Source: Actinosynnema sp. ALI-1.44 (lineage in GTDB: Bacteria; Actinomycetota; Actinomycetes; Mycobacteriales; Pseudonocardiaceae). Taken from it: 64,000 nucleotides of DNA. A program made the translations under genes and the position numbers. Below, piece after piece: positions 1,613 to 3,315 of this stretch. Where the stretch lies: NCBI RefSeq assembly GCF_001984155.1, contig NZ_MTQO01000052.1:124001-188000 (forward strand). Direction: 5' to 3'. The stretch's first letter is position 1. Each line of letters begins with the position of its first letter. The notes under the pieces were generated by a model. That model was not told the origin of the DNA and searched no databases. It saw only the letters and a program-made list of their open reading frames with translations.

Positions 1613-2392
1613 GTGAGGACCAGTGACCTGCGGTTCGGCGTGGACCGCCGTCGGGGCGTGGTCGTCGCCCACCCGGTCGGCGTGTTGGACGCGACGACGT
1701 ACCCCGAATTCCGGGACACCCTGCTGAGGTACGCGGCCGGGCGGCCTGGAGCGCTGCCCGAAGCACTGGTCGTCGACGTGGAGCGGCTGCGGATGCCGTC
1801 CGAGGCGGCACTGACCGTGTTCTCCCTGGTGTCGATGCGAGTGGCGGACTGGCCTGGGGTGCCGGTGCTGCTGGTCGCGCGGGACGAGTGCGCACGAGCG
1901 TCGCTCGCCGGGCGGTTCACGCCGGTGCACTCGTCGGTCGAAGCGGCGGTGGCCGCGGTGGGCAGCCCGCCGCGGAGGTCAAGGGCATCGCTCGAACTGC
2001 CGCCGTCACCGTTGAGTACACGTCGTGCCAGGTACTTCGTCCGCAAGACCTGTGAACGGTGGCACGTCGCGGATATGGTCATCGACGCGATGACCGTGGC
2101 GACCGCCTTCGTGGAGAACGCACTGATACACACCGATTCCATGGCGTTGCTGCGGGTGCAGCTGCGGCAGGGCCTGCTCACCGTCGCGGTGTCCGATGAC
2201 GACCCGCGGCCCGCTGTCATGCGGGAACGGCTGATGGGCGGCGTCCCGCCGTCGGGACTGCTGCTCGTCTCGGCCACGGCGCGCTCCTGGGCCTGCACAC
2301 CATCGCTGACCGGCGGGAAGACCGTGTGGGCCGCGTTGCGGGCGCCCGGGATCATCGCGACGACCGCGCCGTACGGGACCGCCGATGCCTAG
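1613..2392 (+). CDS. STAS plus HATPase_c regulatory protein (anti-sigma / anti-anti-sigma type)
   Basis: 259 residues. Residues ~5-110 look like a STAS domain (VDRRRGVVVAHPVGVLDATTY, then a LVVDVERLRMPSEAAL strand-helix). Residues ~130-245 look like an RsbW-type GHKL ATPase with an N-box-like FVENALIHTD and a degenerate end. Such proteins act in partner-switching control of sigma factors in the cytoplasm. The GTG start has GGAGG eight bases upstream (1601-1605). The STAS serine expected for phosphorylation may be in RMPSEAAL. No sigma gene is adjacent; the anti-sigma/sigma pair at 27.1 kb is a possible but unproven partner. Domain call is good, role inferred. Confidence 0.75.
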   Translation: MRTSDLRFGVDRRRGVVVAHPVGVLDATTYPEFRDTLLRYAAGRPGALPEALVVDVERLRMPSEAALTVFSLVSMRVADWPGVPVLLVARDECARASLAGRFTPVHSSVEAAVAAVGSPPRRSRASLELPPSPLSTRRARYFVRKTCERWHVADMVIDAMTVATAFVENALIHTDSMALLRVQLRQGLLTVAVSDDDPRPAVMRERLMGGVPPSGLLLVSATARSWACTPSLTGGKTVWAALRAPGIIATTAPYGTADA

Positions 2393-2410
2393 TCCACTAT
2401 GGATAGTTAT

Positions 2411-3074
2411 ACCGCTGAACGAATGCTCCGGACCAGCGGTTCCCGCCCCGCACGGCGCTACCGCGAAACAGGGGTATCATTGGTGGGGTCGACACGAGAA
2501 CTCCCTTCCGCTCCAACGGACTACCCAGGGCGAGCCACGTCACACCCGCGGGCGGAACACCAGAGCCCCTTGGCGAGTTAAGCTAAGTGACTGGTGCGGA
2601 ACGAGTCCCCGGGCCGCAACCGAAGCCATCGGGGGAATACCGGGAAACCGGAGCCCCCATGCGCCACTCGCCGAGAGGCGACCGCCGCACCAGTCAGTCC
2701 ACCTCCCGGCTCGCGTCCTCCCCCCTCCGCGAGCCGGGGGTGGTCTGACACAGGACCTGTTCCCCAACAGGCGGCCAACCCCCAGGGCCGTCTCGGCCTC
2801 TGGCCCGTGTATCCCCCCTCCACGGGCCAGGGACCTGTAAGAAAAGGGTGGTCGACCCCCAGGACCACCCTCGGCGCTCCCGGCTCGCACCACCCCCTCC
2901 GCGAGCCGGGAGCGCCTCAAACCCTTACAGAACACTGAGAAAGTCGATCAGTACCCCAGTAATCCACTGAGCACACAGTGGATCACGGCAAGACTGGGCA
3001 GACCACCGGAATGGGCGGCAACCCCGAGGCCGCCGCGCACCCCTGGATCGCGACCCCCAGGCGACCAGGGGTGC
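2411..3074 (+). ncRNA. C-rich-loop hairpin array, candidate large structured RNA (6C-like)
   Basis: No plausible coding frame, but hairpins run almost end to end. Stems (arms): 2411-2417/2434-2440; 2588-2599/2685-2696, enclosing GAAA- and GAGA-capped helices (2640-2651, 2669-2680); 2705-2715/2728-2738; 2756-2761/2766-2771; 2773-2776/2786-2789; 2800-2809/2821-2830; 2846-2853/2863-2870; 2873-2888/2901-2916 (16 perfect pairs); 2962-2969/2976-2983; 3014-3019/3029-3034; 3037-3046/3065-3074. The stem 2835-2841/2924-2930 closes a three-way junction. Loops from 2705 on are nearly all cytosine-rich: CCTCCCCCCTC, TATCCCCCCTC, ACCACCCCCTCC, and the nonamer RACCCCCAG three times (AACCCCGAG once). Loops with six Cs are the hallmark of the small actinobacterial 6C RNA; this array is far longer. 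Strand is assigned because the C-rich loops and GNRA caps read on +. The transcript ends are not known. Confidence 0.55.
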
Positions 3075-3114
3075 CCCGCCATCACTCCATTGAGGACGCG
3101 ACGTGCCGTGAAGG

Positions 3115-3173
3115 TGTGCAACCAATGTGGCCTTTGTTGCGTTTTTCGCTACGAAGGCCACATTGGTTGCCAA
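3115..3173. repeat. 58-base palindromic element, copy 1 (likely bidirectional terminator)
   Basis: Near-perfect 24-base arms (3118-3141 and 3147-3170) around a TTTTT loop. The core arm reads AACCAATGTGGCCTT. A second copy lies at 19356-19414 with the same TGTGCAACC and GGTTGCCAA edges. This copy has two arm mismatches (T at 3135, T at 3150) that are perfect in the other. It sits between the hairpin array (+) and the stop of the small gene at 3199 (-), so it could end transcription from both sides. Confidence 0.8.
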
Positions 3174-3198
3174 CGCCGCGTGAGATACGCACTGGGGG

Positions 3199-3315
3199 CT
3201 ACTCGAGGCCGCGCACGATGGTCGGTTCGAACTCGTACTCGTTCTCCTCGGTTTCCCGTGGTGAGGGCAAGTCGTCGGTCAGGGCGTGCTCGGTTTCGCG
3301 TATCGGGGTGGTCAT
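3199..3315 (-). CDS. 38-residue acidic peptide, possible RiPP-like precursor
   Basis: ATG at 3315 preceded five bases away by a very strong Shine-Dalgarno, AAAGGAG (3321-3327 complement), and closed by TAG at 3199. The peptide is strongly acidic in the middle (DDL, ETEENEYEFE) and ends EPTIVRGLE. The spaced aromatic-Pro-hydrophobic pattern near the C-terminus resembles leader motifs of some ribosomal peptides (YxxP), but no maturase, protease or transporter lies beside it. The 58-base palindrome 25 bases downstream could terminate it. The ribosome site makes it probably real; function is unknown. It could also be a small regulatory protein. Confidence 0.5.
   Translation of the reverse strand: MTTPIRETEHALTDDLPSPRETEENEYEFEPTIVRGLE

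Follow-up and report, generated by a model that had tools for sequence, protein, structure and literature searches.

A conserved structured core followed by an array of C-rich-loop hairpins: a probable small RNA gene in Actinosynnema sp. ALI-1.44

The feature described here occupies the + strand of the window, by which we mean the whole 64,000-nt stretch of DNA analysed, and consists of a predicted ECF (SigR/SigH-like) promoter motif at 2554-2579, a structured core at 2586-2696 and an array of C-loop hairpins at 2697-3074. A preliminary description of this DNA had singled out the array as the feature. The array is indeed real, but the core and the ECF-type promoter motif had been missed, and the 5′ part of the region then delimited (2411-2584) is upstream and promoter DNA. 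From the promoter motif we infer that the core, and with it the RNA, most likely begins at about 2586; the 3′ end of the RNA is provisionally put at the last arm, about 3074/3075. On the 5′ side, the open reading frame at 1613-2392 sits where loci L002-L007 of the genus have a DUF4383 gene divergent to the core (identified with Pfam in L006 and by eye in the others). This frame gave no Pfam match at E 0.01; its N and C parts may correspond to STAS and HATPase. The segment 2455-2550 on the − strand appears, by eye, to preserve the ribosome site and the sequence upstream of a DUF4383 gene now missing, and the relatives have at the equivalent place GTGTGA-N14-GGGTA, which we take to resemble a SigB-type promoter consensus. 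Across 16 loci viewed by eye the neighbouring genes vary, and the gene therefore looks free-standing.

The core, about 110 nt long and immediately 5′ of the array, is the most conserved part of the locus. It is built of a closing helix P1 (2589-2599/2685-2695), the conserved segment GTCCCCGGGCC, an irregular arm P3 and a GNRA hairpin, CGCC-GAGA-GGCG. Support for this structure comes from two alignments. The first, A1, is a MAFFT alignment of 23 cores that was not fitted to any covariance model and from which model R1 was built; R1 scores the window at 118.1 bits over 2585-2702, the window locus (L001) being one of its 23 model-building sequences. RNAalifold and a count of pairs in A1 gave two-sided changes at all 11 pairs of P1 and at two pairs of P3, together with the GNRA hairpin. 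In total, 13 of 25 pairs show such changes, in 54 cells as compared with a shuffled mean of 14.3; none of 500 shuffles reached the observed covariation, and slid controls gave 2-16 cells. The + strand is favoured by G-U variants in P1 and by GAGA/GCGA loops among the 23 cores.

The second alignment, A4, contains 107 cores. These are matches at E ≤0.01 in 95 loci that we chose, from which model R2 was built, and counts over them are not independent, since the cores are related, author-chosen and in eight cases from one genus at this locus. A4 yields 332 two-sided cells against 69.5 in shuffles, a count that leans towards the model because A4, unlike A1, was fitted to it. By the weakest measure, 15 pairs of A4 have two-sided changes (12.9 when shuffled, the observed value being reached by 15 of 500 shuffles); with added pairs the figures are 17 and 13.6, with 17 attained in 3 of 500 shuffles. 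When every pair of columns in A4 was scanned, most of P1 and part of P3 came back, and G24-C133, U25-A132 and C51-G114 were added; three further pairs, 112-141, 12-65 and 40-114, were taken for noise. With the added pairs, the GUCCCCGGGCCUCA segment is mostly unpaired and lies between P1 and P3. A helix P2 proposed by RNAalifold (GGC/GCC, A1 columns 31-33/48-50) is nearly invariant, and the pair scan gave other pairs in its stead.

With respect to known families, Rfam 15 gave no match at gathering score in a scan of the window or in 20 core loci, and in 20 further loci its matches, all off the core, were an SAH riboswitch and two tRNAs. The riboswitch match (L093:18-92) scores 37.7 bits, barely over the gathering score of 37; E-value matches to miRNA, Thr-leader, ar7 and similar entries lie below the cut-offs and were taken as chance. 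Five sequence strings from the core had no occurrence in the literature texts searched, a set that excludes supplements and most subscription papers. As far as this search reaches, mostly without subscription papers, the core family is undescribed, and it is without an Rfam 15 match in the scanned loci.

The core is widespread. Of 60 genomes searched at the DNA level, this one and its relatives, 22 gave matches, including all eight of the genus (the present one counted), and outside the genus the matches cluster, with four short exceptions, on query positions 201-302, the part 5′ of the array. Short non-core matches outside the genus (L021, L022, G008:C2 and G011:C19) were set aside, L021 and L022 appearing coding-like by eye. 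Homologues were also recovered by covariance search, as the preliminary description had suggested: of 200 genomes drawn from the family, 164 have the core, in up to five copies each. The corresponding count is 171 of 298 in the order sample, and R2 matches 121 of 394 genomes at class level and 18 of 396 at phylum level; these four samples overlap, and searches of over 40 genomes used stricter filters that lose weak matches. All 18 phylum-level matches belong to the same class or nearer, so the family seems confined to the class. When genomes of named species were scanned by pattern (80 of at least 118 stretches listed), the core was found, among the matches listed, in Streptomyces, Micromonospora, Nonomuraea, Actinomadura, Actinoallomurus, Microbispora and Planobispora, and further genera among the matches listed are Saccharothrix, Lentzea, Saccharomonospora, Actinoplanes, Phytohabitans and Asanoa. 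Against phage and plasmid records, blastn with the window core gave nothing at E 1e-5, a search that would catch close relatives only. The genome itself holds two copies at E ≤1 with R1, that of the window (contig C49) and another on contig C50. This second copy (L032, G000:C50:298521-298642) adjoins, by eye, a YqgE/AlgH-like gene and has no C4-loop hairpin within 150 nt.

Upstream of the core, the predicted promoter motif on the + strand consists of GGAAC (2554-2558), an 18-nt spacer and GTT (2577-2579). The pattern GGAA[CT]-N15-20-GTT recurs at this distance upstream of 77 of the 107 cores, with a spacer of 18 in 72 of the 77, as compared with 20 of 3800 windows taken at random; shuffled upstream stretches gave a mean of 0.21 per 107. 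For GGAAN-N17-19-GTT, sought at any position in the 70 nt upstream plus 12 nt, the counts are 94 of 107 cores and 63 of 4280 random windows. The consensus of SigR is GGAATN18GTT and that of Mycobacterium tuberculosis SigH is GGGAACAN16CGTT, as excerpted from PMC2375139; the exact motifs occur in 15 and 16 of the 107 cores, respectively, and the GGAAC-N18-GTT of the window is one letter off the SigR motif. On sequence grounds, then, the motif upstream of the cores resembles SigR/SigH-type promoters. It also overlaps a SigE-type motif: in Streptomyces coelicolor the −35 motif of SigE matches GGAACTT, and an 18-bp spacer is found in 59 of 100 sites (excerpt of PMC10771440). Because this −35 motif and spacer overlap the motif upstream of the cores, the RNA may instead be under SigE-type control. 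Neither a sigma-70 promoter nor an intrinsic (U-tract) terminator was found in 2390-3300.

The array itself comprises seven C-loop arms, all on the + strand; its hairpins are stable and their loops carry C4-C6 runs. Loops of class A (CCCCCCUC type) and class B (GACCCCCAG type) take turns along 2699-2916. Specifically, arm 1 (2699-2743, class A, loop TCCTCCCCCCTC) has a counterpart in L002, L003, L004 and L008 and is followed by a small hairpin, CCTGTT-CCCC-AACAGG (2756-2771), of which 2769-2771 also take part in the outer pairs of arm 2 (2769-2793, class B, loop AACCCCCAG at 2777). Arm 3 (2798-2832, class A, loop TATCCCCCCTC), arm 4 (2845-2871, class B, loop GACCCCCAG at 2854) and arm 5 (2873-2916, class A, loop ACCACCCCCTCC) come next; the stem of arm 5 is the one with 16 perfect pairs. 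Beyond a hairpin with the loop AGCACA (2962-2983) lie arm 6 (3014-3034, class B, loop AACCCCGAG at 3020) and arm 7 (3037-3074, class B, GACCCCCAG again at 3052, with one bulge in its stem). The loop motifs, their positions and the perfect stem had all been reported in the preliminary description and are confirmed by direct reading, as is its count of eight C-run loops, which amounts to eight out of nine hairpins, or out of ten if the weak hairpin at 2934-2952 is included; this hairpin and that at 2962-2983 are the ones whose loop has no C-run. The three-way junction that it had also described is present in the predicted fold, where helix 2835-2841/2924-2930 closes it, but by eye is not kept in the nearest relative, L002.

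What sets this region apart is the nature of its loops. Counting hairpins of at least seven perfect pairs, 2411-3074 contains five with a C4 loop, against a mean of 0.23 and a maximum of 2 in 300 dinucleotide shuffles, and when both strands of the window are cut into 382 tiles of the same size, each of the two tiles overlapping the array has five, and none of the other 380 has more than one. The total of such hairpins is ordinary (six, with a tile maximum of 9 and a shuffle maximum of 6), and it is therefore the C-loops, rather than the number of hairpins, that stand out. Over 2393-3110 the fold z-score is −10.7 on the + strand and −5.0 on the − strand (20 shuffles each), the raw fold energy being lower on the G-rich − strand (−388.6 kcal/mol, versus −352.8 kcal/mol on the +); over 2586-3080 the z-score is −10.6 (100 shuffles). 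Stems change in a compensating manner while loops stay constant, as anticipated in the preliminary description: one C-G pair of the 16-pair stem is U-A in L002, and a U-A pair of the last arm is C-G in L005, with an identical loop. The window locus and L002 differ by indels of 1-2 nt, which speaks against a coding region. Past the array, at 3112-3178, there is a near-perfect inverted repeat, CAACCAATGTGGCCTT...AAGGCCACATTGGTTG, that by eye is absent there in L002.

The array had been likened to a large 6C RNA, and this likeness holds in part: the structure is many-armed, and its arms resemble 6C hairpins and show compensating stem changes in relatives, but it is not 6C itself. The 6C RNA (RF01066; B11 in mycobacteria) has a GACCCCCCGG-like loop followed by a CUCCCCCCU-like loop, and arms of the array stand in the same order in two pairs (2769-2793/2798-2832 and 2845-2871/2873-2916, arms 2 and 4 being the first hairpins). 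These two pairs, over 2767-2837 and 2843-2920, align with the full 6C model (1-75) at E 0.0051 and 0.015, scoring 34.9 and 32.2 bits against a gathering cut-off of 47. The genome has a 6C gene elsewhere, on another contig (G000:C45:435402-435477, 72.5 bits, the sole match of the 6C search), with the loops GACCCCCCGG then CUCCCCCCUGG; these scores and this separate gene rule out the array as the 6C RNA. Further differences from 6C/B11 are the seven arms in place of two, the conserved 5′ core and the ECF-type promoter motif. Given the 6C order and the full-model alignment at a score below cut-off, the array may work as tandem 6C-type modules without being filed as 6C. CsrB-like RNAs titrate CsrA through GGA loops, and CsrB/RsmZ resemble the present locus as hairpin arrays with one repeated loop motif; the array here differs in having C-runs and no known partner. 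Among actinobacterial RNAs, scr5583 and scr1434 of Streptomyces are highly expressed intergenic sRNAs with a C-rich loop, and the likeness to them is by description only (excerpt of PMC3765725).

Among the eight genomes of the genus, L008 has a single C-loop arm behind the core, whereas L001 and L002 have about seven, the two ends of the range; a stricter counting script, which misses bulged arms, gave six each in L001, L002 and L003. Since arm number varies between species, the array is a lineage-specific extension. Over the wider set, 44 of the 107 cores have a C4-loop hairpin within 150 nt on the 3′ side, versus 114 of 2140 windows placed at random in the same loci. Some of the 44, L133, L151 and L027 among them, look fortuitous. 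Streptomyces has one C4 loop in 15 of 16 aligned cores, the sixteenth (L136) being cut by a contig end. In four named Lentzea loci (L188, L190, L175 and L158) the core is present in two or three tandem copies, and a C4-loop hairpin lies within 150 nt of 10 of these 11 tandem cores. In Micromonospora and Streptosporangiaceae, what follows most cores is, by eye, a plain terminator-like hairpin. As 63 of the 107 cores have no C4 loop within 150 nt, and as the tails of Micromonospora and Streptosporangiaceae are plain, C-loops cannot be the general function of the core.

Taken together, the covarying, class-wide core and the upstream promoter motif indicate that the locus is probably a free-standing sRNA gene on the + strand, at about 2586-3075. 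The structure, its strand, the promoter motif, the conservation and the constancy of the loops are read from the sequences themselves; as to function, the account that we favour by a modest degree is a stress-induced RNA acting through C-loops that base-pair with G-rich ribosome-binding sites. Thiol-oxidative or heat stress would free an ECF sigma factor, which would transcribe the RNA; the core would provide stability or a docking site for a protein or ligand; and the exposed C-loops would pair with G-rich ribosome-binding sites, repressing several mRNAs at once and more strongly with more arms, a dosage by arm number. Such pairing is plausible by analogy with what has been proposed for B11/6C. 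A reporter carrying the 5′ UTR of eccB4, with its tract of six Gs, is repressed by B11, also when either C-loop alone is mutated (excerpt of PMC10470900). More speculatively, the core could be a class-wide, so far uncatalogued RNA of the actinobacterial thiol/heat-stress regulon, a docking module to which lineages have added effector tails of their own, whether a terminator, a single C-loop hairpin or an array of 6C type serving as a multivalent brake on translation under stress. If these proposals are true, the actinobacterial redox and heat stress response would have an RNA arm, from a multi-copy structured RNA. This is significant as the core RNA spans Streptomyces, Micromonospora and Pseudonocardiaceae-type genera with no Rfam 15 match in the scanned loci, and as the series from one to about seven arms within one genus offers a natural means of asking whether the strength of repression is set by multivalency.

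The same loops could act on a protein. Their being steadier than the stems, the variable arm number and the alternation of loop classes, together with multiplication by a different route in Lentzea through tandem cores, would all suit a sponge in which repeated C-loops titrate an RNA-binding protein and the core is a stability element. We regard this as unlikely: we know of no C-rich-binding partner in these bacteria, and the loops resemble those of 6C/B11, which is reported to repress mRNA (excerpt of PMC10470900). An explanation to which we give a similarly low standing makes the core the functional RNA, binding a protein or the ribosome or sensing a ligand, and the C-loop hairpins mere terminators or decay blockers of drifted number. 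The core is kept without C-loops in several genera, and elsewhere the 3′ hairpin stands at the terminator position, as this would have it; yet C4 loops occur behind cores at about eight times their frequency in random windows, seven arms exceed the needs of termination, and the loops are constant despite changes in the stems. Very improbable, in our view, is a dispersed or DNA-level repeat (REP/BIME-like or mobile) that makes no RNA. Although there are several copies per genome, in some genomes in tandem, a search of the genome with its 718-base region gave one match at E 0.001, the covariation includes G-U pairs, and the promoter motif keeps a near-fixed spacing.

Finally, a short subtype of the core lacks most of P3, which is reduced to a simple GCCGC-UACGA-GCGGC-like hairpin, and scores 33 to 61 bits with R1. 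This subtype was seen in other families (L095, L097-L105 and L107-L110), and two genomes carry both the long and the short form (L091 with L107, and L093 with L108).
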